From the NCBI RefSeq assembly GCF_025136295.1, contig NZ_CP062788.1, positions 1,178,001 to 1,242,000 on the forward strand: a stretch of DNA of 64,000 bases, read 5' to 3'. Below, piece after piece: positions 1,997 through 15,324 of the stretch (positions within the stretch are counted from its first letter, which is position 1; each line of letters begins with the position of its first letter). The notes beneath the pieces were generated by a model. That model saw only the letters and a program-made list of their open reading frames with translations, had not been told where the DNA came from and made no database searches. Source of the DNA: Aestuariispira ectoiniformans. Lineage in GTDB: Bacteria > Pseudomonadota > Alphaproteobacteria > UBA8366 > Aestuariispiraceae. Position numbers and translations under genes: made by a program.

Positions 1997-3118
1997 CTAT
2001 TTACGCGTAAGGAGCATGGCTACAGACATATTGCGGAATGGGTATACTTCCGGATTGGCCTTCAAAAGGGTGTCTGCTGTCTGATAGATTTGGTTCACAA
2101 GATCGGTTTTTGACGGCGTATCGGGAAGACTGCTGGTCAAAGCCGCTTGGGTGAAAGCCCTGAAAAAATTGACAAAACTGGCGGCGTAACGGTCCAGATC
2201 CCCATCCTGTTTATAGGCTTCAACAAAGGGAACGGGTACTTCGTAGGCTTCAGTCCGATCCAATGAATAGAGATGAGACAATTCGTAGACCGGGTTTTTC
2301 AGTGGGGCGATCAGTTCATCCAGGGTACGGAAATAAACCGGCTGATAATATTTTTCGTAAACCTGAGAAGGGATATCACCACGATCGACATGTGCCCGCA
2401 CGGCGTCGTTGAGAAGGTCGAATAACCCGTCGCAAGTGCGGATATCGTCCACGCATCCAAACACCTGGACCATGAGTTTCCCGCCAGGAACAAGTTCTTT
2501 CGACCGGGCAGTCAGAAATGCCGCCATATCCGCTTCTGCGTGCCTGGCAAATGTTTCGCTTTCACTATCGGTAATATAACCGTTGCCCCGAATCTTGCTG
2601 GGTCCGTTCGGCAGAATATATCCAGGCAAGAGATCGAGCGGGCGCTCGCTCAGATAGCCAATCGAGTTGAAAGTCGTGGCAACATGGACGCTTTGGGGGG
2701 GAAGCAATCGATCATACATTGACCCACCGACAGCCGCAGATGAGACCCGTTCTCCATCGAAAGCAGACTTCCCATCGGGCCGTAAGCCAAGGAACAACTT
2801 GGAATAGTCGTTCGTGGGCAAATCGGAATGTAGGGTTAAAAATGGCCGGTCTGTATGGTCCATCGCACGCGCAAGGAGCTTATGCATAACAGAAATGGAG
2901 TTTCGTCCTTCAGAGCAGCCAAAATCCGCAAAAGTAATGGCGCTGGTACCTTCCGCGAAAGGGAGCTCCGTTATGGCGTCCTCCAGCCAGGGGAGGACCG
3001 CCGCAATTTGTGCCCATTGCGGCGCAGAATTCGCGTTATAGAACCCCCCGCCGGCCATGCCGGTCATTCCCGTCGGCTTGATCTGCCTGTCCGTATTTAC
3101 CATCTCAACATTTGTCAT
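1997..3118 (-). CDS. SABATH-family carboxyl methyltransferase
   Basis: A 373-aa S-adenosylmethionine-dependent methyltransferase of the SABATH type (salicylate/jasmonate/indole-acetate carboxyl methyltransferases in plants, with scattered bacterial members). Visible blocks are the SAM-binding FADFGCSEGRNS near residue 62, LHSDLPTND for the adenosine end, and the FNSIGYLSERP region, equivalent to the SxxWLS loop of plant enzymes. Such enzymes turn small carboxylic acids into methyl esters. The start ATG at 3118 has GAAGG 8 nt upstream; the longer frame reaching 3211 is not needed. It is the last gene of the leftward operon, so it probably makes the final methyl ester of the pathway, or masks an intermediate. 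The substrate cannot be read from sequence. Confidence 0.8.
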   Translation of the reverse strand: MTNVEMVNTDRQIKPTGMTGMAGGGFYNANSAPQWAQIAAVLPWLEDAITELPFAEGTSAITFADFGCSEGRNSISVMHKLLARAMDHTDRPFLTLHSDLPTNDYSKLFLGLRPDGKSAFDGERVSSAAVGGSMYDRLLPPQSVHVATTFNSIGYLSERPLDLLPGYILPNGPSKIRGNGYITDSESETFARHAEADMAAFLTARSKELVPGGKLMVQVFGCVDDIRTCDGLFDLLNDAVRAHVDRGDIPSQVYEKYYQPVYFRTLDELIAPLKNPVYELSHLYSLDRTEAYEVPVPFVEAYKQDGDLDRYAASFVNFFRAFTQAALTSSLPDTPSKTDLVNQIYQTADTLLKANPEVYPFRNMSVAMLLTRK

Positions 3119-3170
3119 AAATATTTCCTTCGAATAGCGATTTGTTGCGCAAGGTCTCTCATTGCGGTTG

Positions 3171-3980
3171 TTAGGCCTTCGATAAGGCACCGGAACGTAA
3201 ATGCACGGCAAATAGGGGCAATCCGGTCAGGGCCAATCCACCAACCAGATTTCCAAGGACAACCGGAATCTCGTTCCAAATCAGATAGTCGAGAACGGAA
3301 AAGTCCCCGCCCAGCATCAGAGCGGTCGGAAACAGATACATATTGACGACTGAGTGCTCGAACGTCATCGCGAAGAAGAGCATGATCGGCATCCACATGG
3401 CGATCACCTTCCCGCTGACCGAGGTGGAAATCATTGCGCCAACGACACCAAGGGACACCATCCAATTGCACAGCGCACCGCGAATAAAGATGGTCATCAT
3501 GCCGCCGATGCCATGCTCCTTGTATCCCACAGTGCGATTCTTGCCGATATTGGCGATGATCTCGCCGACATGACTGACTTCTGCCGTATATCCATAGGTA
3601 AAGATGACAGAAGTCAGGAAGGCAATGAGCAGGGCGCCCAGGAAATTACCGATAAAGGTGGTTGCGATTGTCCTCGTTACCCCGCCAAGGGTTATATCGG
3701 GGCGACGGTCGAGCCAGGCCAAAGGGGCAAGAACGAACATCCCGGTAACAAGATCGAATCCCATGAGATACAAAATGCAAAAGCCGACCGGGAACAACAC
3801 GGCGCCTACGATGGGAAATCCGGTCTGGACACCAACTGTGATCGCAAAAACAGCGGAAATAGCCAGAATAGCACCGGCCATGAATGCCCTGATGAACAAT
3901 ATACGGGGGTTCAGTAAGATTTTTTCCTCGCCCACATCGATGATTTTCTCAACAAAGATGCGCGGTTCGTAATAAGACAT
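3171..3980 (-). CDS. Formate/nitrite transporter (FNT) family channel
   Basis: A 269-aa inner-membrane protein with about six hydrophobic segments. The FNT signatures are clear: RGALCNWMVSLG (third repeat region) and the FEHSVVNMYLFP block, which holds the central pore histidine of FocA/NirC proteins. These pentameric channels pass formate, nitrite or related small monovalent anions or acids. It sits between an EamA exporter and a SABATH methyltransferase in one leftward operon, with an SD (GGAG) ahead of the ATG at 3980. A channel of this kind in a small-molecule cluster suggests that formate or nitrite is a by-product to be expelled or a substrate to be imported; which one cannot be told here. 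Confidence 0.9.
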   Translation of the reverse strand: MSYYEPRIFVEKIIDVGEEKILLNPRILFIRAFMAGAILAISAVFAITVGVQTGFPIVGAVLFPVGFCILYLMGFDLVTGMFVLAPLAWLDRRPDITLGGVTRTIATTFIGNFLGALLIAFLTSVIFTYGYTAEVSHVGEIIANIGKNRTVGYKEHGIGGMMTIFIRGALCNWMVSLGVVGAMISTSVSGKVIAMWMPIMLFFAMTFEHSVVNMYLFPTALMLGGDFSVLDYLIWNEIPVVLGNLVGGLALTGLPLFAVHLRSGALSKA

Positions 3981-4085
3981 AGGATATCTCCATGTGCTGT
4001 GCATCTTCTGGTGGCATGCCAAACAGGCCGATTGGACAAGTCGGCGCGGCCGAAACCATTGCTCCACGCCAAAATGTTCAGCCCT

Positions 4086-5030
4086 CTAACTGCTTCGCGC
4101 CATGCCATTTTTCGTTTTTTCTCTGCCAGTTAATCGTGGCAGGCGTTGCCGCGTGACGGCCCAAATGCCTGCCATGATCAGGGCAATGCTCAATATGAAA
4201 TAGGATCCGAAATCCTCGTCGAAAAACGCCCATGCGAGCAGGGTGATGGTTGGTGGCACCAGAAAGAAATAGCTTTGAGAGTGAGAAACATCCCGTTTTC
4301 GTATGAGGATGTAAAACAACAGCCAGCTGCCCAGGGACAACACAATTCCCATCCATAGCAGCGACCCAAGCAAGGGGAATGTCCAGTTGACGGTCATTGG
4401 CTCAAAAGCAAGCATCAAACCAAAGACAGGGATGAACGCGCTGAAATGTTGTATCAATGATCCTGTCATCAGGTTCATATGCGCAACGAAACGTTTTTGA
4501 TACAGCACGCCGGCAACCATGCTGAAAAGGCATAAAATCGTCAGGAACAGCCCGCTATAGGTGTTGTCGCCAGTATGGACTTTCTGGCCGACGATGAAAA
4601 CGACGCCAATTGTCCCCAGCAACAGCCCGAGCGCCTGTTTGAAGCTGGAGTTTTCGCCGAGAAATACAGCGGCCCCCACAGAAGCGAGTACCGGATGCAA
4701 AGCCATGATCAAACCGACAGTCCCGGCATCCATGCCCCACTCATACGCGATCAGCATTCCGGTAAAGCAAAAACCGTGAATGAGAATCCCGATCACAGAC
4801 AGGTGCACATACTCCGTCGCCTTCTTGGGCCAATCGGCCTTGAAAAAATAAATGATCGTCAAAAAAATCGGGATCGGAATGGCCAATCGCAGGGATTGGA
4901 ATGTAAAGGGGTCCGTAAAAGCGATCCCGGTTTTTGATGCGACATAACCGGAACTATATAAAACAACAAATAACACCGGTAGTATTCGGTCAACGAATAC
5001 TGAATGTTTATTCGCGCGAGTTGGAGGCAT
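4086..5030 (-). CDS. EamA/DMT-family transporter
   Basis: A 314-aa drug/metabolite-transporter superfamily protein with ten predicted membrane helices in two EamA repeats; the first has the typical SSGYVASKTG start and the ALHPVLASVGAAVFLGE block near residue 115, the second ends near residue 290. These carriers export amino-acid-like metabolites or hydrophobic small molecules. It is the third gene of the leftward operon, 23 bp after the thioesterase, and is the obvious candidate exporter for the pathway product. The start ATG has a weak GGAAAC site. Confidence 0.87.
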   Translation of the reverse strand: MPPTRANKHSVFVDRILPVLFVVLYSSGYVASKTGIAFTDPFTFQSLRLAIPIPIFLTIIYFFKADWPKKATEYVHLSVIGILIHGFCFTGMLIAYEWGMDAGTVGLIMALHPVLASVGAAVFLGENSSFKQALGLLLGTIGVVFIVGQKVHTGDNTYSGLFLTILCLFSMVAGVLYQKRFVAHMNLMTGSLIQHFSAFIPVFGLMLAFEPMTVNWTFPLLGSLLWMGIVLSLGSWLLFYILIRKRDVSHSQSYFFLVPPTITLLAWAFFDEDFGSYFILSIALIMAGIWAVTRQRLPRLTGREKTKNGMARSS

Positions 5031-5053
5031 TATTTTGTTTCCAGCTTGTTTGA

Positions 5054-5536
5054 CTAGTCGGCAGGCGCCATGTCACGAGCTGGTTCCGCTAAATATTCAA
5101 GGAGATAATCCTTGAAGTATCCAGGCACCTCCACCGTTTCGATCCTTTTGGATTTAGCCGAGGATTGTGCGCAAATGACTGTGAGCTGTCCTTTTGAGAC
5201 GGGCTCCTTGGTGTGGTCTTCGGACTCTTTATATAGCAGGAATTTCAACGTGATGGATTTTTTGCCAATGCGTGCAACATTCAGGGCGATATGTATTTTA
5301 TCGCCAAACAGCATCGGCCGTAAAAAATCGCATTTGGTTGAGAGTATCGGCCACTTGTATAGCGGATCACAGATACTCATCCCCCCATTCTGGAAGAAGC
5401 GCGTTTCCGCATATTCAACATAGCGGAAGGCGTTTGAATAATGCGCAATGCCTGCCATGTCTGTTTCACAGAATTCTACATCTTTTGAAACTGTGAACAG
5501 CTTTTCATCAACCTGCCTGTCATTTTTATTAATCAT
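5054..5536 (-). CDS. Hotdog-fold acyl-CoA thioesterase (4HBT type)
   Basis: A 160-aa single hotdog domain. The 4-hydroxybenzoyl-CoA thioesterase signature is present, D26-x2-G29-x2-H32 followed by FRYVEYAETRFF, which carries the catalytic aspartate and helix of the family. Such enzymes hydrolyse acyl-CoA or aryl-CoA thioesters. The ATG at 5536 is preferred over a TTG at 5548 because GGACGGA precedes it. It lies 12 bp downstream of the double acyl-adenylating enzyme, so a likely job is releasing the free acid from the CoA ester made by that enzyme, or clearing dead-end thioesters. Confidence 0.86.
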   Translation of the reverse strand: MINKNDRQVDEKLFTVSKDVEFCETDMAGIAHYSNAFRYVEYAETRFFQNGGMSICDPLYKWPILSTKCDFLRPMLFGDKIHIALNVARIGKKSITLKFLLYKESEDHTKEPVSKGQLTVICAQSSAKSKRIETVEVPGYFKDYLLEYLAEPARDMAPAD

Positions 5537-5548
5537 TGTTCCGTCCAA

Positions 5549-8500
5549 TCAAGCAGTTTCACGAATGATGCGCTTCAGTTTTTTTCCGGTAACTCCCTCG
5601 TTGGAGCCGGGATGGACCTGTTTTATTTCCGAAATTTCGGGGAGGTTATTTTCGATCGAATAATTGAAAATCCGGTCGGTGACCTGTTCGAGCGATGTAT
5701 TCTCCCTGAGTTCGACCTGAATTTTCAGGGTTCCTTCGGTGTTGCCCTGCACCACGGTGCAGTCGAAAATTTCGGGAATGTTCTTCAAATAGGATTCTTC
5801 AAGTTGGCAGCTGTAATATGTTTTGCCATTCAGCAGCATGGCGTCGCTCGTCCTGTCGACATGATAATAAAGGCCATTCTCTCCCTTGTAGACCAGATCA
5901 CCAGTCAACCAGTAACCGTTGAGAATAGCGCTTTCCGTTGCTTCCCGGTTTCCCCAATAGCCCGATGTCACGCTTGGTGATTTGACCCCCAACCTGCCGA
6001 CCTGACCGCATTCTGTGATCTCTTCGCCCTCTTCATCGAAGAGCGCGACTTTAATCCAGGAAAACGGCTTGCCGATGCATCGGTCAAAATTGTTCGTTTC
6101 GATGGTGTGAATGTTTCTGAAGATGCCAAACGCGAATTCCGAAGAGCCCAGATTGTCGATAAACAGAGCGCCGTTCACGCGTTCGCCATTTTCGATCCGA
6201 TGGCCATATTGGACTATCTGCCTGACATGCGGTTCGTGGCATGCATCCGCCGTACTCATCCATATGTTTATAGATGACAGCCGCTGGGGCTCGATATCGC
6301 ATCGGCATAAATCGACATAGATGCTGGGGAAGGCAAACATCATCGACGGTTTGAACGTTTCAATCGCCGTTACAACGCTGTCTGGTGATTTGTCAGAGAT
6401 TAGGACCAGATGATTCATCCGCAGGATGTTGCTCATCAGCATTGTGATTGCAGCGGCGTGCGAGTGAGGGGCCGCTGACATCACGGTATCGCCAAGTTGC
6501 CGTTCGAGTTGCTTTTTGACACCGTAAATAATCGATTCATGGCTGAAGGAAACAGCCTTTGGCAGGCCTGTTGTGCCCGACGTGTGGCTGATAAGAACGG
6601 TGTCTTCGGCCTTGTGGTCGTAAATGTCACAGGCCTCTGTAAATGGTTGCTCTTCCACAGCAAGGCGGCTTTCAATCCGGCCGTCAATCTCAGTGCTGAA
6701 GGCAAGGATTTTGTCCAGCCGCTCACCTTCCGATACAAGCAAATCGGCTTTGATGTTCGACAAATATTTACTTGCGATTTCCGGCAGCAATCCGCCATTC
6801 ACAAAGGCTGGAATTGCTCCGATCCTGGTCAGGGCAAGATAGTGGAAATAATAGGATATCCCGTCATCCAAATACAAAGCCACGATGGATTTCGGCCGAA
6901 TGCCCATATGCCAGTAACATGAGGCGATATGGGTTGTTTTATTCACCAGGTCACGCCGGGTGAATTCATGAGGCTGGCCGTCGAAATCAATGTAGGTAAG
7001 GGCTTTTTTGTCCGCCTCGTCCGCCAATTCATCAACGCGGAACAGAAAGTTACCTGCGCCGATACTGGGGTCCTTGGCCATGCTGCTTATCAATGCTTCC
7101 TTATCCATCGCATTATTTCCTTCAATATTTTCGGACCCATGTCGCAGCATGTGACGTTTCAGTTTTCCCGTTTCCGTTTTGGGTAAGCTGTCAACGAATT
7201 TGACCGACCGTGGATATTTGTAGGGAGATATTGTCTGCTTCACGTGGTTCTGCAGCGTTTCCACCAAACCCTTCTCACTGCCGTCCCTGTCCGCCAGAAC
7301 GACATGGGCCTGGACGATATGTCCACGGTCTGGATCCGGAACGCCGATAACCGCACATTCCCGCACGTAGGGATGCGAAAGCAGCGCCTCTTCAACCTCG
7401 GCAGCGGCAATGTTATAGCCGGACGAAATGATCATATCGTCCCCTCGGGAAACGAAATGAAGCCGTCCATCCTTGTCTTTGCGAAAGAAGTCACCAGTCA
7501 GGTTCCAGCCATTTTTCACGTAGTCGGACTGACGGGGGTCATCCAGGTAACGGCAACCTGTTGGCCCGCGGAAACCCAACCACCCCGGCTCTTCAATTCC
7601 GACCGCTTTCATTTCATCATCGAAGAGTTCGACCTCGTATCCTTCAATCGGTTGGAGCCCCACCGGTCCGGACTTGAAATCATCAAGGGTTGTTGCCAAA
7701 AATGTGTGTAGCGCTTCGGTTGAACCCATTCCGTTTATGATGGGTACGCCGATGTTGTCCTGCCAGCTCTCCAATACCGGGTGCGGTAAATTTTCGCCTG
7801 CGGACACGGCGCATCTCAATGTCTTGAGAAGTTCAAAGTTGGACTTCTGGGATAGCATTGTCTTGTAAGCTGTCGGTGCCGAAAAACAGACAGTTGCACC
7901 ATAACGGTCGATCAATTCCGGTAAGTTGGATGGAGAGGTTTGCTCCAACAATACTGCCGTTGCGGCAAAACGCAGCGGAAACACAGCCAAACCACCCAAA
8001 CCAAAAGTGAATGCCAGCGGTGGCGTGCCGATGCAGATATCCGCAGGCACCAGTTTAATGCGCTGCCTTGCGAAACCATCAGCGATGGCAAGGATATCCC
8101 GATGACAGTGCATTGTGATTTTGGGCTTGCCGGTTGTACCGGACGTGCTGGCCAGCAGTGCTATGTCGTGCTGGGAGGTGGTGACTACGTCAAAGTCTGT
8201 CGATTTTGAGACTGCCAGGTTGTTGATCTCGGCATCGTTGTCATCACAGGTGGAAAATTCTGCGATTTTGAGTTCGGGGGCTATTTTTCCGTTCAGACGG
8301 TCTAATTCTTCACCCAGTCCCTTTTGACAAAGAACCAAATCAACTTTGGCCTTATCGATCAAAATGTTCAATTCATTGGCGCGCATCTGCGATATGGTGT
8401 TAAAGGCGATCGCACCCGCCTTTAGAACTGCCAGAAAGCAGGCCACCATCATCGGACAATTCTTGGACCGGATCATGACCCGGTTTCCGGGCACAATCCC

Positions 8501-8752
8501 GAAATCTTCGGTGAGAACCTGAGCTATTTTGTTTGAGAGTTCACTGAGCTGCCGATACGACAGCGAACCATTTGCACCGATCAATGCGGTGTGATCGCCG
8601 AATCCGCGCTCTACCAAGGCATCAACTAATTCTACCCCTGCGTTTAATTTTTTCTGATATGGGTAAAGATCTGTCTTGAATTTTGGCAACGCCTCAGTTG
8701 TTGGCAATTTGTTGTTTGCAAACTCATCTTTGTGGCCAGTTTCTACAAACAT
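5549..8752 (-). CDS. Fused double acyl-adenylating enzyme (two AMP-forming ligase modules)
   Basis: A 1067-aa protein made of two complete ANL-superfamily ligases in tandem. Module 1 (about 1-540) has the phosphate loop STSGTTGKPK at 202-211, NGMGSTE near 340, RGDDMIISSGYN near 437 and the catalytic lysine K530 in TETGK; its overall look is that of benzoate/2-aminobenzoate-CoA ligases. Module 2 (549-1067) has HTSGTTGLPK at 723-732, an unusual hinge (AMLLNGKTYYSCQLEE) and a final GVTGK lysine, K1057. No carrier-protein domain is visible, so CoA thioester formation or adenylate transfer is more likely than NRPS chemistry. The junction holds an internal ATG (M549, position 7108) with GAAGGAA 8 nt upstream, as if two genes had merged. 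It is the first gene of the leftward operon. Confidence 0.85.
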   Translation of the reverse strand: MFVETGHKDEFANNKLPTTEALPKFKTDLYPYQKKLNAGVELVDALVERGFGDHTALIGANGSLSYRQLSELSNKIAQVLTEDFGIVPGNRVMIRSKNCPMMVACFLAVLKAGAIAFNTISQMRANELNILIDKAKVDLVLCQKGLGEELDRLNGKIAPELKIAEFSTCDDNDAEINNLAVSKSTDFDVVTTSQHDIALLASTSGTTGKPKITMHCHRDILAIADGFARQRIKLVPADICIGTPPLAFTFGLGGLAVFPLRFAATAVLLEQTSPSNLPELIDRYGATVCFSAPTAYKTMLSQKSNFELLKTLRCAVSAGENLPHPVLESWQDNIGVPIINGMGSTEALHTFLATTLDDFKSGPVGLQPIEGYEVELFDDEMKAVGIEEPGWLGFRGPTGCRYLDDPRQSDYVKNGWNLTGDFFRKDKDGRLHFVSRGDDMIISSGYNIAAAEVEEALLSHPYVRECAVIGVPDPDRGHIVQAHVVLADRDGSEKGLVETLQNHVKQTISPYKYPRSVKFVDSLPKTETGKLKRHMLRHGSENIEGNNAMDKEALISSMAKDPSIGAGNFLFRVDELADEADKKALTYIDFDGQPHEFTRRDLVNKTTHIASCYWHMGIRPKSIVALYLDDGISYYFHYLALTRIGAIPAFVNGGLLPEIASKYLSNIKADLLVSEGERLDKILAFSTEIDGRIESRLAVEEQPFTEACDIYDHKAEDTVLISHTSGTTGLPKAVSFSHESIIYGVKKQLERQLGDTVMSAAPHSHAAAITMLMSNILRMNHLVLISDKSPDSVVTAIETFKPSMMFAFPSIYVDLCRCDIEPQRLSSINIWMSTADACHEPHVRQIVQYGHRIENGERVNGALFIDNLGSSEFAFGIFRNIHTIETNNFDRCIGKPFSWIKVALFDEEGEEITECGQVGRLGVKSPSVTSGYWGNREATESAILNGYWLTGDLVYKGENGLYYHVDRTSDAMLLNGKTYYSCQLEESYLKNIPEIFDCTVVQGNTEGTLKIQVELRENTSLEQVTDRIFNYSIENNLPEISEIKQVHPGSNEGVTGKKLKRIIRETA

Positions 8753-8972
8753 TTCCTTAACCTGATTTATAATCTATTGATATAACGTCATAAATTTTAT
8801 GATCCTTATAAAAATAGATTAAGTTGTGGACTGAAATCTATGGTTGATATTCATTGCAGAAGATTACTAAAACTTGCAATGAAAAAAATTTATTAAAATT
8901 ATATTTTTTCCTAGACGCTCTCGGCCAGTTTTTTTATATGCTCTTATAAGTAGCAACTGAAACGGCGATGAA
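8753..8972. promoter_or_regulatory. Divergent promoter region with nested palindromes
   Basis: This 220-bp AT-rich gap separates the two divergent operons and must hold both promoters. A perfect 15-nt palindrome, TCATAAATTTTATGA (8788-8802), is flanked almost symmetrically by an outer inverted pair, AATCTATT (8771-8778) and AATAGATT (8813-8820); AATCTAT recurs at 8835-8841. A second perfect pair, TCATTGCA (8851-8858) and TGCAATGA (8875-8882), lies nearer the rightward operon. These look like operators for a dimeric regulator, but no DNA-binding regulator is encoded within the cluster. I could not assign -35/-10 boxes with confidence. Confidence 0.55.
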
Positions 8973-9632
8973 ATGATGAGCTTAGAACGGAAAACCACCA
9001 ATCTTTCGGAGATGGATGTAGCAAGTCAGACGCTACGAATTGTCGTTATTGGTGGCGAAGGACACGTCGGAAGCACGATTTGCTCTGCGCTGCCCGTCCA
9101 CCATGAGGTGATAAAAGTCGGGCGAAATAGCGGAGATGTTCGTGCGGATATTTCGAACCGCTCGTCCATCGAGGCTATGTATGCCGAAATAGGAAAGGTC
9201 GACGCTGTCGTTCTTGCCGCGGGTGCCGTGCACTTCAGTCCGCTCACGGATTTTCCTGAAGACAAGTTCCTTTTCAACCTGATGCACAAGGCAATGGGTC
9301 AGATCAACTGTGTGCTTGCCGGGCTGGACCATCTCAATGATGGCGGGTCATTTACACTAACGAGTGGCATACTCGACAGAGACCCGATCCGCATGGGAAG
9401 TGGTGCAGCAGCAGCAAACGGGGCAATCGGCGGTTTTGTAAAGAGCGCAGCGATCGAAATGCCCAGGAGCACCAGGATCAATGCTGTCAGCACCGGCCTT
9501 CAAGACATTTCCGTCGAACGGTACGGAAGCGTATTCCCCGGTCATGCCCCTGTTTCTTCTGATCGGGTGAAATACGCCTACCTCAAATGCATCGAAGGGG
9601 CCATAACCGGCCAAATTCTTACCATCGATTGA
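8973..9632 (+). CDS. Short SDR-fold protein lacking the YxxxK motif (paralogue 1)
   Basis: A 219-aa Rossmann-fold protein of the short-chain dehydrogenase type. The nucleotide loop GGEGHVG (27-33) and the VLAAGA strand are intact and S131 is in place, but where the catalytic Tyr-x3-Lys should follow there is an alanine-rich stretch (GAAAANGAIGG, 144-154). A family of roughly 200-aa SDR-like proteins with this altered site exists, so the protein may bind NAD(P) without classical SDR catalysis or use other residues. It is a sister of the product at 11243-11842, alike at roughly half of positions by eye, with the same IKVGRNSGD and DGGSFTLT blocks. ATGs at 8973, 8976 and 9012 compete; none has a strong ribosome site. 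Confidence 0.75.
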   Translation: MMSLERKTTNLSEMDVASQTLRIVVIGGEGHVGSTICSALPVHHEVIKVGRNSGDVRADISNRSSIEAMYAEIGKVDAVVLAAGAVHFSPLTDFPEDKFLFNLMHKAMGQINCVLAGLDHLNDGGSFTLTSGILDRDPIRMGSGAAAANGAIGGFVKSAAIEMPRSTRINAVSTGLQDISVERYGSVFPGHAPVSSDRVKYAYLKCIEGAITGQILTID

Positions 9633-9694
9633 GGTGCCTGGGCAGACAGGCCGAACACCCGTCAGTTCAAATTGGTTCGCGAATCTGGAGGCCA

Positions 9695-10399
9695 ATGGTG
9701 AAATACAAACTTGTAAGCTACGAATTGTGCCCCTTTGTTCAGCAGGTCTCGATCGTTCTTTCCATGAAGAACATTGAGTATGACATTGAGTTTATCGACC
9801 TATCCAATCCGCCTGAGTGGTTTACGGAAGTCTCCCCATTGAAGAAGGTGCCAATTCTGCTGGTTGGTGCCGATCAGGTGCTGTTTGAATCGATAGCGAT
9901 AATTGAATTCATTGAAGATTCCGCTGAGCAAAAGACATACCCGTCGAACCTGGTTGAGCGATGCCGTGATCGTGCCTGGATTCAGTTCATTAATCAGATG
10001 ATGTGGAGCCTCTACGACCTTTCCGTGAACAGCAGTGAAAGCGAATACGGATCGACCGTAGAGGCATTGCATAAGAAGCTGGACCAGTTGGAGGCCGCTT
10101 CTGGCGGCGGGCAATACCTTTTTGGAGAGTCGTTTTCTCTTGTTGAAGCCACGCTGGCACCGCTGCTTCTTCGCATCGGTTACATAGATCAAATTGCTCC
10201 CGGTATTCTGGATGAAGCGCGCCATCGCAATATTTGCCGAATTTATCAGTCAATAATCTCGAACGCCGATGTTCAACGTTCGACGCCTGCAAGTCTGCAG
10301 CAGTCTTACTATGCATTGCTGGCCAAACGCCAAGGCTATCTGGCTGCGTTTTTAGATCCGGGATTTAGTCCCGCGCCCCAGCTCGCGTCGAGATATTAG
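9695..10399 (+). CDS. Glutathione S-transferase family protein
   Basis: A 234-aa protein with a thioredoxin-like N-terminal domain carrying C12-P-F in ELCPFVQQV, the cis-proline block KKVPIL and the glutathione-binding LFESIAIIEFI, followed by an all-helical C-terminal domain. A cysteine at this place is typical of omega/lambda/DHAR-like and etherase-type GSTs, which reduce or deglutathionylate small molecules rather than simply conjugate them. The ATG at 9695 has CTGGAG just upstream; the longer in-frame extension overlaps the previous gene and is rejected. Within the operon it could add or remove glutathione from a reactive intermediate. Confidence 0.82.
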   Translation: MVKYKLVSYELCPFVQQVSIVLSMKNIEYDIEFIDLSNPPEWFTEVSPLKKVPILLVGADQVLFESIAIIEFIEDSAEQKTYPSNLVERCRDRAWIQFINQMMWSLYDLSVNSSESEYGSTVEALHKKLDQLEAASGGGQYLFGESFSLVEATLAPLLLRIGYIDQIAPGILDEARHRNICRIYQSIISNADVQRSTPASLQQSYYALLAKRQGYLAAFLDPGFSPAPQLASRY

Positions 10400-10488
10400 A
10401 GCGATACCTTCCGGGGAATTTTCGACCATTCAACTGTAACCAGGAAATAGATCCTTCTTAACCTGGGCAGAAAGTTTGAGGAAACGCC

Positions 10489-11202
10489 ATGAGCACTCAG
10501 GACTCATTTGAGAAAACGAAAAAAACCACACTAAAACGCAGCCCCGAATATGCCGACTATGACAAACGGGCGGTCTACGAAATCCTGGATAGCGGCTATA
10601 TGTGCACCATCGCATTCGTGATCGACGGAATGCCTTACCTCAATCCAACACTTTATTGGCGTAAGGGCGACTATGTGTATTGGCATGGACTGTCCGGGAG
10701 CAGGATGCTGCTCGAACAAGCCAAAAATGTCGACGTCTGTTTCAACGTTTCCCATCTGGACGGGCTTCTGTTGGGGCGATCCGCTTTTCACCACTCCGTA
10801 AACTATCGCTCGGTCACGATCTATGGGAAAACGGAACTGGTAGAAGACCATGATGAGAAGATGGAGGTCGCATTTGACCTCATCGAATCCTATTTCCCCG
10901 GACGTCGTTCCGAATTACGCGAACATAAAGAAGAAGAAATCCTCAAAGTTAAGTTTCTCCGCCTGCCCATTGAGGAAGTTTCTGCAAAACACCGATACGA
11001 CAATTCGGTCATGGATATTTTGAGACGGCAGGAAAGCCCGGCCATAATGGAATATGGTCCTGAGGGCGTTAACCCTCATTGTTGGACGGGAACAATTCCG
11101 ATCCGCACGGTGATGGGAACACCAATTTCCGATACAGCTACTGACCCCAACATTCAGTTGCCCGGTTACTTGTCACGCTCAAGGTTCAAAGCCGACTTTT
11201 GA
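10489..11202 (+). CDS. Pyridoxamine-5'-phosphate-oxidase-fold flavoprotein
   Basis: A 237-aa split-barrel protein of the NimA-like PNPOx superfamily. The N-terminal blocks LKRSPEYADYDKRAVYEIL, CTIAFVIDGMPYLNPT and YVYWHGLSGSRML are the usual FMN-contact segments of this group, and SVTIYGK follows in the second half of the barrel. Members bind FMN, F420 or heme and act as small reductases or oxidases; the exact cofactor cannot be read. GAGG precedes the ATG. In this operon it may supply electrons to, or act in sequence with, the diiron oxidase. Confidence 0.83.
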   Translation: MSTQDSFEKTKKTTLKRSPEYADYDKRAVYEILDSGYMCTIAFVIDGMPYLNPTLYWRKGDYVYWHGLSGSRMLLEQAKNVDVCFNVSHLDGLLLGRSAFHHSVNYRSVTIYGKTELVEDHDEKMEVAFDLIESYFPGRRSELREHKEEEILKVKFLRLPIEEVSAKHRYDNSVMDILRRQESPAIMEYGPEGVNPHCWTGTIPIRTVMGTPISDTATDPNIQLPGYLSRSRFKADF

Positions 11203-11242
11203 GCCGGTTGCTGTCAAAAAACTAGATACTGAGGGGAAAGCG

Positions 11243-11842
11243 ATGAAAGTAGTTGTGATTGGTGCAGGCGGTGACGTTGGTCGAACGGTCTGTGCAGAGC
11301 TCAGCAAAAGGCATGACGTTATCAAGGTTGGCCGGAATTCCGGCGACTATCATGCTGACATGACTGATATGGCATCCCTCCAAAGGCTATTTCAGGCGGT
11401 CGGGGAAATAGATGCGGTTGTTGTTACCGCCGGTTCTGTCGTTTTCTCTGACCTGCAGGATATCTCCCAGGAAGACTTCATGTATGCGCTGTCAAATAAG
11501 GTGATGGGGCAGGTGAATGTCGTTCTGGCCGGCATGCAGCATGTGAGAGATGGCGGTTCTTTCACACTGACGAATGGCCTGCTGGATCAACATCCTGTTC
11601 CAAAAGGAGTTGGCGCGGCAACCGCAAATGCGGCGCTTGCCGGTTTTGCGGCAGCAGCAGCGATTGAGATGCCGCGAAACATAAGGCTAAACGTCGTAAG
11701 TCCTGGCCTTCTGGATATTTCGTTTGAACGCTATGGCCCCACTCTCAAAGGACATGACTATGTTCCATCGGAAGTTGTCGCCGCGGCTTATGCGGAAAGC
11801 GTCGAGGGCTCCGCTTCCGGACAGCGGCTCATAGGGGAATGA
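11243..11842 (+). CDS. Short SDR-fold protein lacking catalytic residues (paralogue 2)
   Basis: A 199-aa Rossmann-fold protein, the sister of the product at 8973-9632. The nucleotide loop GAGGDVG (7-13) is clear. The SDR serine is replaced (N111 in TLTNGLLD) and no Tyr-x3-Lys follows (VGAATANAALAGF, 122-134). It is thus further from a classical dehydrogenase than its sister. The two genes share the VIKVGRNSGD segment that lies where the second nucleotide strand ends. AGGGG precedes the ATG by 6 nt. Either the pair forms a heteromer or each handles a different step; both readings are inference. Confidence 0.77.
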   Translation: MKVVVIGAGGDVGRTVCAELSKRHDVIKVGRNSGDYHADMTDMASLQRLFQAVGEIDAVVVTAGSVVFSDLQDISQEDFMYALSNKVMGQVNVVLAGMQHVRDGGSFTLTNGLLDQHPVPKGVGAATANAALAGFAAAAAIEMPRNIRLNVVSPGLLDISFERYGPTLKGHDYVPSEVVAAAYAESVEGSASGQRLIGE

Positions 11843-11939
11843 TAGACCAACGGAAGGGCTGCTTTCAGACAATCTCTATTCACTTCACATCCTTGTTCAT
11901 CGTCCCAGCGCCGACCAGCCTCAAGGAGACCCAGGAAAG

Positions 11940-12176
11940 ATGCAGTGTTTATTCGTCCAAATAAAATGCAGTCCAGGACTACAGCGTAGCGTTGCAAATA
12001 AAATAGCAGTTAAAGAGCTTCACTCCGAGATTTATTCAATCAACGGAGACTATGACATCCTGATGAAAACCTATCTGAAAGACTTTAACGAGGCTCAAAG
12101 CATCGTTTCAAAAATGGTCAGTAACGTTGAGGGCATTGAAAAGACGTTCACCATGTTTGCCTTTGATCTGTTTTAA
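11940..12176 (+). CDS. Stand-alone Lrp/AsnC ligand-binding (RAM) domain protein
   Basis: A 78-aa alpha-beta sandwich matching only the C-terminal effector domain of Lrp/AsnC regulators, with YSINGDYDILMKTYLKD as the core of the fold; there is no helix-turn-helix. Free-standing RAM proteins form oligomers and bind amino acids or small effectors, and some work as ligand carriers or stabilisers of enzymes. Its place in the middle of a biosynthetic-looking operon suggests that it binds a pathway intermediate or an amino acid substrate. The ATG follows a purine run, AGGAAAG. Confidence 0.8.
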   Translation: MQCLFVQIKCSPGLQRSVANKIAVKELHSEIYSINGDYDILMKTYLKDFNEAQSIVSKMVSNVEGIEKTFTMFAFDLF

Positions 12177-12243
12177 GCAGCATTTGTTTCACTAAATGGC
12201 CGCCTGCAGGCGAAAGACACCAACAAACCAGGAGGAATGAGGG

Positions 12244-12678
12244 TTGGCATTGAACTATTTCGAGATAAATGGCGAGGCGATAAAGACGCTTCTCTCCATC
12301 AAAAAACAGGTCTCCACCATTGAGGAGGCCTTGCAGTATCTGGTTGAACTGCGCGTCTCGCAAATCAACGGCTGCGCCTATTGTGTCAACTTACATTCAA
12401 TCGAAGCGAGAAAAGCAGGCGTTCCCCAACAGAAACTCGACTGCCTGACGGTTTGGAAAGAAAGCGACTTTTTCTCGGAAAGAGAATGCGCAGCCCTGAG
12501 TTGGGCCGAAAGCGTGACAAGAATTTATGAGGAACGTCAGCCTGAAGAGAAGCTGGACCTCCTGCTGGAGACTTTCAGCGAAAAAGAAGCTGTGGATTTG
12601 ACCTTCATCGTAAGCACGATGAACGCGCTGAACCGTATCGCCATAAGCTGTGGAGACAAACCCGAAAGGATGGCGTGA
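12244..12678 (+). CDS. AhpD-like / carboxymuconolactone-decarboxylase-family protein
   Basis: A 144-aa all-helical protein with the AhpD redox motif: C44-A-Y-C47-x3-H51, preceded by ELRVSQINGC. Relatives act as thiol peroxidases or as hydroperoxide-reducing partners, and others are decarboxylases without the cysteines. The start is read as TTG at 12244 because GGAGG sits 8 nt before it; the ATG at 12237 is out of frame and one base from the SD. In this operon it may detoxify peroxide made by the oxidase or reduce a pathway intermediate. Confidence 0.82.
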   Translation: MALNYFEINGEAIKTLLSIKKQVSTIEEALQYLVELRVSQINGCAYCVNLHSIEARKAGVPQQKLDCLTVWKESDFFSERECAALSWAESVTRIYEERQPEEKLDLLLETFSEKEAVDLTFIVSTMNALNRIAISCGDKPERMA

Positions 12679-12769: not shown

Positions 12770-13477
12770 ATGAGTGAATACCAAAAAGAGATCGAAATTC
12801 GCAACGGTTCCGCACTGCTGCAATCAGCTCACGAAGAGCTGGCCGCACGCTTGCAAAAACATCCGTTCCTGACCGCTTGTCGAAACGGCACGATCTCCAT
12901 GGAACAGTTAAAGACCTTCCTGGAGCAACAGGCCCTCTATAGCGAAAAATTCATCCAGTATCTTTGTGCGTTGATTAGTAATCTTGATCGGCAGGACGAA
13001 GTTCACGACTTATTGGAAAATTTGGCTGAGGAAATGGGAGTGGACGAACATGGTGACGAGCCACATTCGAAAATTTTCGCGCGGCTGCTAAACGATTTCG
13101 ACATCGATCGATCGAAGATCGAACCGTTGCCTCAAACGACCGAGCTAATAGAGCGCATGTTCCGTTGGTGCAGCGATAAGGATTCCGCCTGTGGCTTGGG
13201 GGCTCTTTGCCTCGGTGCTGAGGCAATTGTACCGGATATGTATAGTGACATCGTCGCTGGTTTCCGGGCTCATGGGATCGATGATGAGACAATCCACTTC
13301 TTTATTCTTCATATGGAATGTGATGACGGCCATGCTGAGACCATGATGAAAATCATCGACCGGCTGGTGGAAGCCAATCAATCCAGAACAAATGCTGTAT
13401 TGCAGGCGGCCGGCGATATGATCGAAGCCCGGATGTCCTTTTTCAGCGCAATTATGGAGGCCGATCATGGGCGATAA
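12770..13477 (+). CDS. Heme-oxygenase-like diiron oxidase (HDO; PqqC/TENA fold)
   Basis: A 235-aa all-helical protein of the iron-containing redox enzyme family. The metal-site pattern of HDOs is visible: E87/E88 in NLAEEMG, H99 in EPHSKIF, E151 in LGAEAIVP, and H181-x3-D185-x2-H188 in HMECDDGHAE; this last spacing equals that of known members such as SznF and CADD. HDOs activate oxygen for N-oxygenation, desaturation with fragmentation, decarboxylation or self-sacrificial chemistry. PqqC itself is cofactor-free and comes with pqqABDE, which are absent here. The gene overlaps the cupin by 11 nt, so the two are likely made together. It is the probable core oxidative enzyme of the cluster. Confidence 0.83.
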   Translation: MSEYQKEIEIRNGSALLQSAHEELAARLQKHPFLTACRNGTISMEQLKTFLEQQALYSEKFIQYLCALISNLDRQDEVHDLLENLAEEMGVDEHGDEPHSKIFARLLNDFDIDRSKIEPLPQTTELIERMFRWCSDKDSACGLGALCLGAEAIVPDMYSDIVAGFRAHGIDDETIHFFILHMECDDGHAETMMKIIDRLVEANQSRTNAVLQAAGDMIEARMSFFSAIMEADHGR

Positions 13478-13922
13478 ACACTATTCATCCGTCGATTTTG
13501 GAATCGTCCGCGACCATCTGAAACCAGAGAAGGTGGATAAACTTATCCACCAAGATGTGATGGGCCTCGCGTCGACGGAAAACGATGATATCTCTGAAGA
13601 TAGAAAGCATCTGGTAAAACTGGTCGATCTGCCATCAAAGGTATTGAGCATGACCATTGGGGGACTGGAGCCAAAACAATCCACAAGACGGCATCGTCAT
13701 AACTACGAAACAGTCCTTTATGTGCTGGAAGGGCATGGCGTCTCGATTATCGAAGACCAGGAGGTCATCTGGAAGGCTGGCGATGCCGTTTACGTTCCGG
13801 TTTGGACCTGGCACAATCATGTCAATCTAAGCGAGAGCGAAAATGCTCTCTATGTCGCTTGTGAGAATGCACCGCAACTTCTCAATCTGGGGATTGCCTT
13901 GCGGGAAGAAGAAGCCGAGTAG
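13467..13922 (+). CDS. Single-domain cupin protein
   Basis: A 151-aa protein with one cupin barrel: motif 1 reads HRHNYETVLYVLEGHG (H76, H78, E81) and motif 2 GDAVYVPVWTWHNHVN (H116 or H118), giving a probable mononuclear metal site. Cupins of this kind can be dioxygenases, isomerases or simply metal-binding partners. It starts inside the end of the HDO gene (11-nt overlap) and closes the rightward operon. The tight coupling suggests that both act on successive intermediates, or that the cupin supports the oxidase. Confidence 0.83.
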   Translation: MGDKHYSSVDFGIVRDHLKPEKVDKLIHQDVMGLASTENDDISEDRKHLVKLVDLPSKVLSMTIGGLEPKQSTRRHRHNYETVLYVLEGHGVSIIEDQEVIWKAGDAVYVPVWTWHNHVNLSESENALYVACENAPQLLNLGIALREEEAE

Positions 13923-14352: not shown

Positions 14353-15324
14353 TCAGTTTACGTCAGTTGCCTCCAAACGGCGTAGAACCGCATCGTGAAA
14401 TTCCTGTGCAGCGGGAGACAGATCACGCCCTTTCATGCGCAGGAGCGAATAGGCGGACACATGGAGGTCTGCCGCCACGGGAAGTGTCGCAATTTGCCCA
14501 CTCAATCCGCTGCTCGCCCCATAGAAATCAGCAACAGAACTGGACACCGGCGCAATGGCATTGGACTGTCCGATCATCGCCAAGGTCATTAGCAGCGAGG
14601 AAGTCCGTAGAATCTGATGAGGTAGCGGAACACCTGCAGCAACCAGATATCGCTCCACTGTCTGGGTTAGCAACCCTTCCCGCGTCTGCATGATCCAGTC
14701 AAATTCCACGCAATCATCCAGCGTAAGGGATTTTCGGCGCTGCAATGGGTGACCCGTTCTCACGATCAGGCTTAGCGGTTCCTCTCCGATCCGGCGCTCG
14801 TCGAACAGGTCCGGGTTCACATCCCCTAAAATCCGGCCAATGGCGAAGTCAATCTCGCCCTCAAGCAGAGCGTCAACAAGTTTGCCGCTGGTCTCTACAA
14901 TGATCGTGACATCAATCATGGGGCGTGTGAGACGGATTTGCCGGATTACCGGCATTATGACTTCCAAAGCGGGGCCGGTAACCGATCCGACACTGACACT
15001 GCCGCGGTAACCGGCACTCAATTCAGCAATTTCCCGATCCACGTCATCGAGGTCCCGCAAAATCCGTCCCGCCCGCTCGGCAAGCCTTTCACCAAAAGTT
15101 GTCAACTCGATACCCCGGGCGTGGCGACTATAGAGTTGGCTGCCAACGATTTCTTCCAACTGCGCCAAAAGTCGCGATGCCGCTGGTTGTGCCATATGCA
15201 GTCTTGTTGCGGCTGTTCCTACCTGGCCCGTTGCCCGCAGGGCCACAATCAGGCGTAGATGTTGGAGCTTCAGCCCCTTGCGGAGCATTCTGTCTTGATC
15301 GACGAGAACCGGGTGAAGGGACAT
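14353..15324 (-). CDS. gguR: LysR-family regulator of sugar catabolism (GbpR/GguR-like)
   Basis: A 323-aa LysR-type activator: winged HTH near residues 20-75 (GTAATRLHMAQPAASRLLAQLE) and a C-terminal effector domain starting about residue 105. It is transcribed divergently from the chvE-gguAB operon, the position taken by GbpR in Agrobacterium and by GguR-type regulators, which respond to L-arabinose/D-galactose pathway intermediates. A perfect 10-bp inverted repeat (15338-15369) lies directly upstream of its start. The ATG at 15324 has GAGGA 6 nt upstream. The symbol is by synteny and could equally be gbpR. Confidence 0.8.
   Translation of the reverse strand: MSLHPVLVDQDRMLRKGLKLQHLRLIVALRATGQVGTAATRLHMAQPAASRLLAQLEEIVGSQLYSRHARGIELTTFGERLAERAGRILRDLDDVDREIAELSAGYRGSVSVGSVTGPALEVIMPVIRQIRLTRPMIDVTIIVETSGKLVDALLEGEIDFAIGRILGDVNPDLFDERRIGEEPLSLIVRTGHPLQRRKSLTLDDCVEFDWIMQTREGLLTQTVERYLVAAGVPLPHQILRTSSLLMTLAMIGQSNAIAPVSSSVADFYGASSGLSGQIATLPVAADLHVSAYSLLRMKGRDLSPAAQEFHDAVLRRLEATDVN

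Follow-up and report, generated by a model that had tools for sequence, protein, structure and literature searches.

A stretch of 64,000 nucleotides from Aestuariispira ectoiniformans (contig NZ_CP062788.1, positions 1,178,001 to 1,242,000), referred to here as the window, was found to carry a minus-strand gene in which a coenzyme A (CoA) ligase module (module 1) is joined to a module of the ATP-dependent diazotase family (module 2). Judging from sequence comparison, its product is probably a bifunctional aminobenzoate-CoA ligase/diazotase that acts in a small biosynthetic cluster and receives nitrite through the cluster's own channel. The proposal builds on four observations: the two domain families, an old shared fusion, a cluster of ten genes that has been conserved, and the purifying selection acting on each module. 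The open reading frame (ORF) at 5549-8752 runs uninterrupted over 1067 amino acids. Pfam recognised two AMP-binding stretches in it and one AMP-binding_C domain, located within module 1, and found no carrier domain. This agrees with the original prediction, made from the letters of the window, which had described two fused adenylating enzymes lacking a carrier; the adenylating identity of both modules was read correctly, while the diazotase likeness of module 2, the main point here, was missed. As the two modules are only 23% identical over 426 columns, the gene did not arise by recent duplication of one module. All four close homologues found are fused: the window gene and those of Pseudovibrio sp. 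Ad37 (L015), an uncultured Pseudovibrio, 151-G (L016), and G434, a genome from the same Pseudovibrio genus set as Ad37. The three Pseudovibrio-group proteins are 73-74% identical to the window fusion over its whole length.

Assignment of module 2 was based on profile scores, solved sequences, a motif and a tree. Module 2 scored 344.8 bits against NF058622, the profile of the 3-aminoavenalumate diazotase AvaA6, with the runner-up family at 154.7 bits; five unfused relatives (four plasmid proteins and one protein from genome G426) scored 303-396 bits, a band that includes module 2. The nearest solved sequences, 8ztz, 9xb8, 9bq0 and 8tf7, were matched by phmmer at E 4.3e-82 to 6.7e-64 from residue 5 or 10 to residue 516 or 517, and the next best matches, to ordinary ligases, were at E 6.6e-24 or weaker. 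The motif D[AST]xHxxH[IV][RK], derived from the alignments of this analysis and not from the literature, was present in all eight diazotase-type proteins scanned (module 2, as DACHEPHVR, and seven relatives) and absent from module 1 and from all three anthranilate-type ligases compared. The glutamate of the GSSE region, E872, presumed to correspond to E352 of CreM, and the C-terminal lysine (GVTGK) are also kept. Module 2 has no Pfam AMP-binding_C domain, yet its C-terminal end, GVTGKKLKR, is the lysine region. A joint tree split 11 diazotase-type rows at 100/100 from the 5 ligase rows, one of which is module 1, a result that carries a long-branch warning. Diazotases of this family are described as AMPylating nitrous acid with ATP and diazotising amines (PMC10777205, PMC11705231), and such chemistry is highly likely for module 2 given these matches.

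Module 1 had its best PDB match in 4wv3, an anthranilate-CoA ligase (E 6.6e-65). In a tree of 20 rows, made up of an 18-row clade and two outgroup ligases, it fell within that clade, which holds anthranilate-operon-type ligases, at 98/96; another intended outgroup (L008) yielded no ORF and is absent from the tree. Operon context was inspected for three of the 14 non-fusion rows of the clade, the other eleven being Pseudovibrio-group paralogues. The ligase of Ruegeria pomeroyi lies near tryptophan 2,3-dioxygenase and a bifunctional salicylyl-CoA 5-hydroxylase/oxidoreductase, and that of Ensifer near kynA and kynU (kynureninase). The third belongs to A. ectoiniformans itself, 62 kb from the fusion and 6.3 kb past the window end, in an anthranilate-type operon whose 799-residue oxygenase scores 1303.6 bits for NF006101. 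There a 4HBT thioesterase comes directly after the ligase gene, as it does after the fusion; the two thioesterases are only 28% identical over 89 residues. Ligases for 2-aminobenzoate are reported to supply 2-aminobenzoyl-CoA to a flavin monooxygenase/reductase (PMC4539516). Module 1 resembles such anthranilate-CoA ligases (PMC4539516; PDB 4wv3) in grouping with operon ligases of this kind, the own-genome paralogue among them. It differs in being fused to a diazotase-like module outside a catabolic operon, in its 48-54% identity to the own-genome paralogue and the Ruegeria ligase, and in a set of fixed differences. This placement makes an aminobenzoate the likely substrate of module 1.

Ten genes are shared in the same order and orientation between the window and all three Pseudovibrio-group loci, at 60-87% protein identity. 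Beginning with a methyltransferase, a formate/nitrite (FNT) channel, which shows the highest identity, an EamA transporter and a 4HBT thioesterase, the series continues with the fusion and, divergently, with a first short-chain dehydrogenase/reductase (SDR 1), a glutathione S-transferase (GST), a pyridoxamine-phosphate-oxidase-like (PNPOx-like) protein, SDR 2 and a carboxymuconolactone-decarboxylase (CMD)-family protein. Four neighbouring window genes had no match in the Pseudovibrio-group loci at E 1e-5, the Ad37 locus ending near the cluster on both sides, and since these flanking genes are unmatched the cluster is taken to span approximately 1997-12678. We take the methyltransferase to be of the SABATH type. 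The coordinates of all features are collected in the table below. The FNT protein matched PF01226, and its FEHS core histidine motif aligns with FocA; there is an even chance that the channel supplies nitrite. No CreE or CreD gene of the aspartate-nitrosuccinate (ANS) pathway was recognised by Pfam among the ten cluster genes. A supposed CreE-like Streptomyces query, which NCBIfam and Pfam did not confirm as CreE and which was run without a positive control, matched 0 of 4 genomes. The periplasmic nitrate reductase NapA, which would produce nitrite in that compartment, scored over its cut-off in all four fusion carriers. The ANS pathway is usual but not universal elsewhere, being reported as missing from 72 of 134 ava-like clusters (PMC10777205).

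Two of the solved sequences closest to module 2, 9bq0 and 8tf7, are Tri17 (PMC11705231), and of the four nearest chains these alone were tied to a named protein. Module 2 could accordingly be a Tri17-like N-nitrosating enzyme acting on a hydrazine or a hydrazone, or a member of the family that uses some other nucleophile, with a triazene, an azide or a nitrosamine-like compound as its product in place of an arene diazonium, all the more as a wide range of substrates has been reported for Tri17 (PMC11705231). This is unlikely, because the partner module resembles an aminobenzoate ligase and because Pfam, which gave a name to each of the ten genes, recognised no hydrazine-forming enzyme among them.

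A number of results weigh against a bifunctional aminobenzoate-CoA ligase/diazotase. The score of module 2 for NF058622 lies far below the equivalog cut-off of 975 bits, and by that score module 2 is a relative of AvaA6 and not AvaA6 itself; its identity to the unfused relatives detected does not exceed 35%. Module 1 alone scored 333.9 bits for TIGR02262 (benzoate-CoA ligase), under the cut-off of 375.25, and is therefore termed ligase-like and kept outside the curated subfamily, with the three other fusions at 390-402 bits when scored as whole two-module proteins and the own-genome paralogue at 382.5. Compared with 14 anthranilate-type ligases it shows 28 fixed differences, some of them near the GSTE motif (340, 342, 350), so that its substrate may differ from anthranilate. 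The FNT protein falls under the NCBIfam cut-offs for fnt (TIGR00790), FocA and NirC, has LCIA as its closest solved protein, and belongs to a family that transports formate too. NapA was rejected as a marker of nitrite supply since it does not discriminate, being present in 13 of the 16 genomes of the Pseudovibrio set. Within the cluster neither an anthranilate synthesis gene nor a clear AvaA7-type enzyme was recognised. The predicted structures were poor, with a predicted local distance difference test (pLDDT) score of 33 for the fusion (4-row alignment) and 38 for module 2 (5 rows). SDR 1 and SDR 2, considered as AvaA7-like candidates, were rejected on blastp against two diazotase-neighbour epimerases, the best match reaching E 0.005 across 20 residues.

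The missed cut-offs and the fixed differences would fit modules that serve unrelated steps, module 1 acting on a benzoate- or salicylate-like acid, module 2 being a diverged ordinary adenylating ligase that has ceased to use nitrite, and the channel carrying formate. Such an arrangement is improbable: module 2 has retained the diazotase-family motif and resembles the family over nearly its full length, it groups with the diazotase-type rows at 100/100, and no ordinary ligase family comes near its NF058622 score.

The joint between the modules was then considered. The C-terminal end of module 1, PKTETGKLKRHMLR, is followed by GAAGGAA at 7123-7117 (minus strand), and an 8-nucleotide spacer, ATAATGCG, leads to an ATG at 7108-7106 that opens a frame of 519 codons, as originally described. 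Homology to solved diazotase-family proteins starts at module 2 residue 5-10, and the joint thus coincides with the native N-terminus of module 2. This Shine-Dalgarno (SD)-like signal had been taken to mean either that the genes fused recently or that a free module 2 of 519 residues is made besides the fusion. In its favour the signal stands exactly at the joint, with AAAGGA and an ATG at the same place in 151-G. The strength of the signal was evaluated from its pairing energy with the anti-SD octamer, against a background of 25 window ORFs, picked as likely genes, that contain 265 in-frame internal ATGs. The value of -5.0 at ATG 7108 was equalled or beaten at 34 of these, and ATG 7435 of the same fused gene pairs more strongly (-7.5); the strength is ordinary and the position alone notable. 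Promoter-like sites over 6900-9000 numbered 3, against 3.0 expected from shuffles. At the equivalent position Ad37 has GAG without an SD and G434 has ACA after AAAGGGG, so the ATG is dispensable for function in these two, and a need for a free module 2 is not supported. As Ad37 and G434 are sisters (98/96 in the joint tree), a single change accounts for the pattern, and the simplest reading is that the ATG is the older state, lost in this pair, unless the root falls on the Ad37/G434 branch. The ATG at 7108 is probably at most the relic start of an old fusion, although a short module 2 product may be made in the window species alone. As a side observation, the fused gene's own SD-like sequence, TAAGGAA (window 8745-8765), abuts the ATG at 8752 and leaves hardly any spacer, which is not the case in Ad37 and 151-G.

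When the window fusion was compared with each of the other three, the proportion of synonymous differences (pS) was 0.74-0.85 and that of nonsynonymous differences (pN) 0.13-0.17 in both modules; both are under purifying selection, with synonymous sites near saturation. Because this holds for a joint that is the same in all four close homologues, the fusion is old. The fusion copies form single clades in the module 1 tree (99/100) and, for module 2, in the joint tree (100/100), and one fusion event therefore suffices. No unfused close homologue was found in related genomes, where the original prediction had suggested looking; the unfused relatives detected are those of at most 35% identity to module 2. 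The shared joint, the near-saturated synonymous sites, the absence of the ATG from two of four fusions and its unexceptional SD together make a recent fusion, or a free module 2 made from the internal start, quite improbable. An assembly error that merged two adjacent genes can practically be dismissed, as the same joint occurs in four separate genomes and pN is low relative to pS in both modules.

The distribution of the fusion is narrow. At the set thresholds a match to module 2 was obtained for one genome among the 14 of the window's family, one among the 43 of its order and one among the 385 in a sample of its class (the last among the matches listed, with at most three candidates scored per genome), and in every case this was the window's own genome. 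A phylum sample searched with NF058622, in which few candidates were scored per genome, returned 1 of 398, again the own genome only. Of the Pseudovibrio genus set, which comprises 16 genomes, 3 carry the full fusion, and in the family of Pseudovibrio a match to module 2 at E 1e-60 occurred in 4 of 87, three fused and one unfused (35% identity). On plasmids, none of the 134 records with a match at E 1e-60 cover 80% of the fusion; proteins related to module 2 at 28-32% identity occur in 19 records. In the seven of 20 relatives that were inspected (six plasmid records and the G426 protein) no ligase module stands in front of the module 2 relative. The cluster has a G+C content of 49.6%, compared with 57.3% for window positions 12679-64000, and in G434 it is surrounded by ORFs that resemble transposases and one that resembles a reverse transcriptase, as judged by eye from the translations. 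These properties are compatible with horizontal spread. A plausible origin is the landing of a diazotase gene within a ligase-thioesterase pair.

Table. Features of the fusion locus and its surroundings in the window.
Feature	Position	Strand	Basis or remark
Fused gene, CoA ligase module + diazotase-family module	5549..8752	-	1067 aa; ORF, Pfam/NCBIfam, homologues
Module 1 (aa 1-537), benzoate/anthranilate-CoA-ligase-like	7142..8752	-	AMP-binding + AMP-binding_C (Pfam)
Module 2 (aa 549-1067), ATP-dependent diazotase-family domain	5552..7108	-	NF058622, PDB matches, DACHEPHVR motif, tree
SD-like GAAGGAA + in-frame ATG at module joint	7106..7123	-	Probably relic start
4HBT hotdog thioesterase	5054..5548	-	Pfam; ORF starts directly past fusion stop; 63-64% identical in 3/3 Pseudovibrio-group clusters
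EamA-family transporter, exporter-like	4086..5030	-	Pfam/NCBIfam
FNT channel, possible nitrite supply	3171..4067	-	PF01226 E 1.4e-58; 85-87% identity, most conserved protein of the cluster
S-adenosylmethionine-dependent carboxyl methyltransferase	1997..3211	-	PF03492 E 1.5e-35; PDB 5f2o fatty acid O-methyltransferase, 1m6e salicylate methyltransferase
SDR 1	8973..9632	+	Pfam/NCBIfam
GST-like protein	9587..10399	+	Pfam
PNPOx-like flavin protein	10489..11202	+	Pfam; weak Nim similarity, under cut-off
SDR 2, paralogue of SDR 1	11243..11842	+	Pfam
CMD-family protein, outer cluster gene	12244..12678	+	Pfam
Heme-oxygenase-like (CADD type), outside cluster	12770-13477		PF14518; overlaps cupin gene
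Cupin, outside cluster	13467-13922
LysR, outside cluster	14353-15324
M14 peptidase, outside cluster	650-1843

Some unfused relatives of module 2 stand in arylamine or nitrite contexts. A relative in Streptomyces NBC_00503 (L046) lies near a nitrosuccinate lyase (788.6 bits, cut-off 650), and a diazotase-family gene on a Klebsiella michiganensis plasmid (L043:9980-11683) lies near genes annotated as 3-dehydroquinate synthase II and 2-amino-3,7-dideoxy-D-threo-hept-6-ulosonate synthase. These neighbours resemble the 3-amino-4-hydroxybenzoate (3,4-AHBA) synthases AvaH/AvaI; the same locus also holds an epimerase, with transposase genes nearby. On two Streptomyces plasmids (L044, L045) a diazotase-type gene has a separate, divergent AMP-binding gene on one side and is itself followed by a hotdog thioesterase gene. 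The set of functions is similar to that of the fusion locus (diazotase-type, AMP-binding, hotdog thioesterase), whereas the genes are unfused, the ligase shares approximately 25% identity with module 1, and blastp gave no match between their thioesterases and that of the window. This separate ligase was rejected as the unfused ancestor on the basis of that identity, compared with 48-54% for the anthranilate-type ligases, and of its divergent placement. Another fused member of the diazotase family, of 709 residues, is encoded on Sinorhizobium medicae pWSM1115_3 (L042:9941-12070), differing from the present fusion in that its partner is another, OsmC (PF02566, 29.6 bits), attached at the opposite, C-terminal end, and in that the gene stands beside one of nonribosomal peptide synthetase (NRPS) type.

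Further observations were made on these surroundings. Plasmid pWSM1115_3 is typed as conjugative, and an OsmC gene also adjoins the diazotase-family gene of locus L040. The latter (L040:8831-10534; G426:C32, of the Pseudovibrio genus set) is unfused, encodes a protein 35% identical to module 2, lies amid polyketide synthase/NRPS-like ORFs and adjoins a DeoC/LacD-type aldolase gene besides the OsmC-like gene; it is a second, distinct cluster of N-N type in the genus Pseudovibrio. On a Leisingera thetidis plasmid a divergent diazotase-family gene (L041:11839-13545) lies near pabB, a 4-hydroxybenzoate 3-monooxygenase and an aminotransferase, as well as an acyl-homoserine-lactone synthase and a LuxR gene, and relatives occur on 5 Leisingera plasmids. 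The A. ectoiniformans genome itself contains an NRPS-like region of approximately 60 kb (C1:2322597-2384735), with frames of up to 5601 codons and repeated adenylation-domain matches.

For the bifunctional aminobenzoate-CoA ligase/diazotase we infer a substrate, an order of steps, a nitrite source and a product as follows. Module 1 would form the CoA thioester most likely of anthranilate or of a close ortho-aminobenzoate, with anthranilate supplied by tryptophan catabolism or by the shikimate pathway. Module 2 would spend a second ATP in AMPylating nitrite and would diazotise the ortho-amino group to give a 2-diazobenzoyl species, which would be 2-diazobenzoyl-CoA if the thioester is formed first. 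The probable entry route for nitrite is the FNT channel, whose gene lies third downstream of the fusion, and its source would be seawater or the reduction of nitrate in the periplasm. Benzenediazonium-2-carboxylate loses N2 and CO2 to give benzyne. Masking of the carboxylate as a thioester would avert formation of that compound, and having both steps on one chain would curb escape of the reactive diazonium. Whether the two modules act in sequence on one molecule is evenly balanced. The complete proposal, in which one polypeptide turns anthranilate, CoA, nitrite and two ATP into 2-diazobenzoyl-CoA within a mobile cluster, the nitrite arriving by the cluster's own channel and not from aspartate, is put forward tentatively. 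Downstream, the SDRs, the GST and the flavin protein might reduce, displace or couple the diazo group, after which the thioesterase would free the acid, the SABATH-type enzyme methylate it and EamA export it; in this exact form the route is doubtful. Conceivable end products are methyl benzoate or salicylate, an indazolone, a thio-substituted benzoate or an azo compound.

Module 2 resembles CreM, AvaA6, CmaA6, Aha11, SpiA7 and Tri17 in its near full-length match, shared motif, GSSE glutamate and GVTGK lysine; by name, the comparison was with Tri17 and the AvaA6 profile only. Relative to the CreM/AvaA6/Tri17 family, the present diazotase stands behind a CoA ligase, has an FNT channel in its cluster with no ANS genes recognised, and is of low identity. 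The characterised diazotases covered in a review come from actinomycetes and are mostly linked to ANS-made nitrite (PMC11705231). A natural fusion within diazo biosynthesis is also described there, namely SpiED of the spinamycin cluster, which joins two nitrite-forming ANS enzymes (PMC11705231); SpiED makes nitrite, whereas the present fusion would consume it. The literature searched, judged mainly at abstract level, gave no report of a ligase-diazotase fusion and none of a diazotase cluster in Pseudovibrio or of diazobenzoyl-CoA as a biological compound, and a search for fused proteins in PMC11705231, PMC11429834 and PMC13061610 showed none of this kind. Each half of the protein is of a kind already known, and the fusion and its setting would be the new part.

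Few diazo-forming enzymes are known. The reading proposed here, if true, would point to a second nitrite supply for diazo chemistry, from the environment or from nitrate respiration, would show how a cell channels an unstable aryl diazonium, and would provide a ready two-step biocatalyst. Pseudovibrio is a marine genus known from invertebrates, and the cluster would then point to an unrecognised class of reactive metabolites in this genus.

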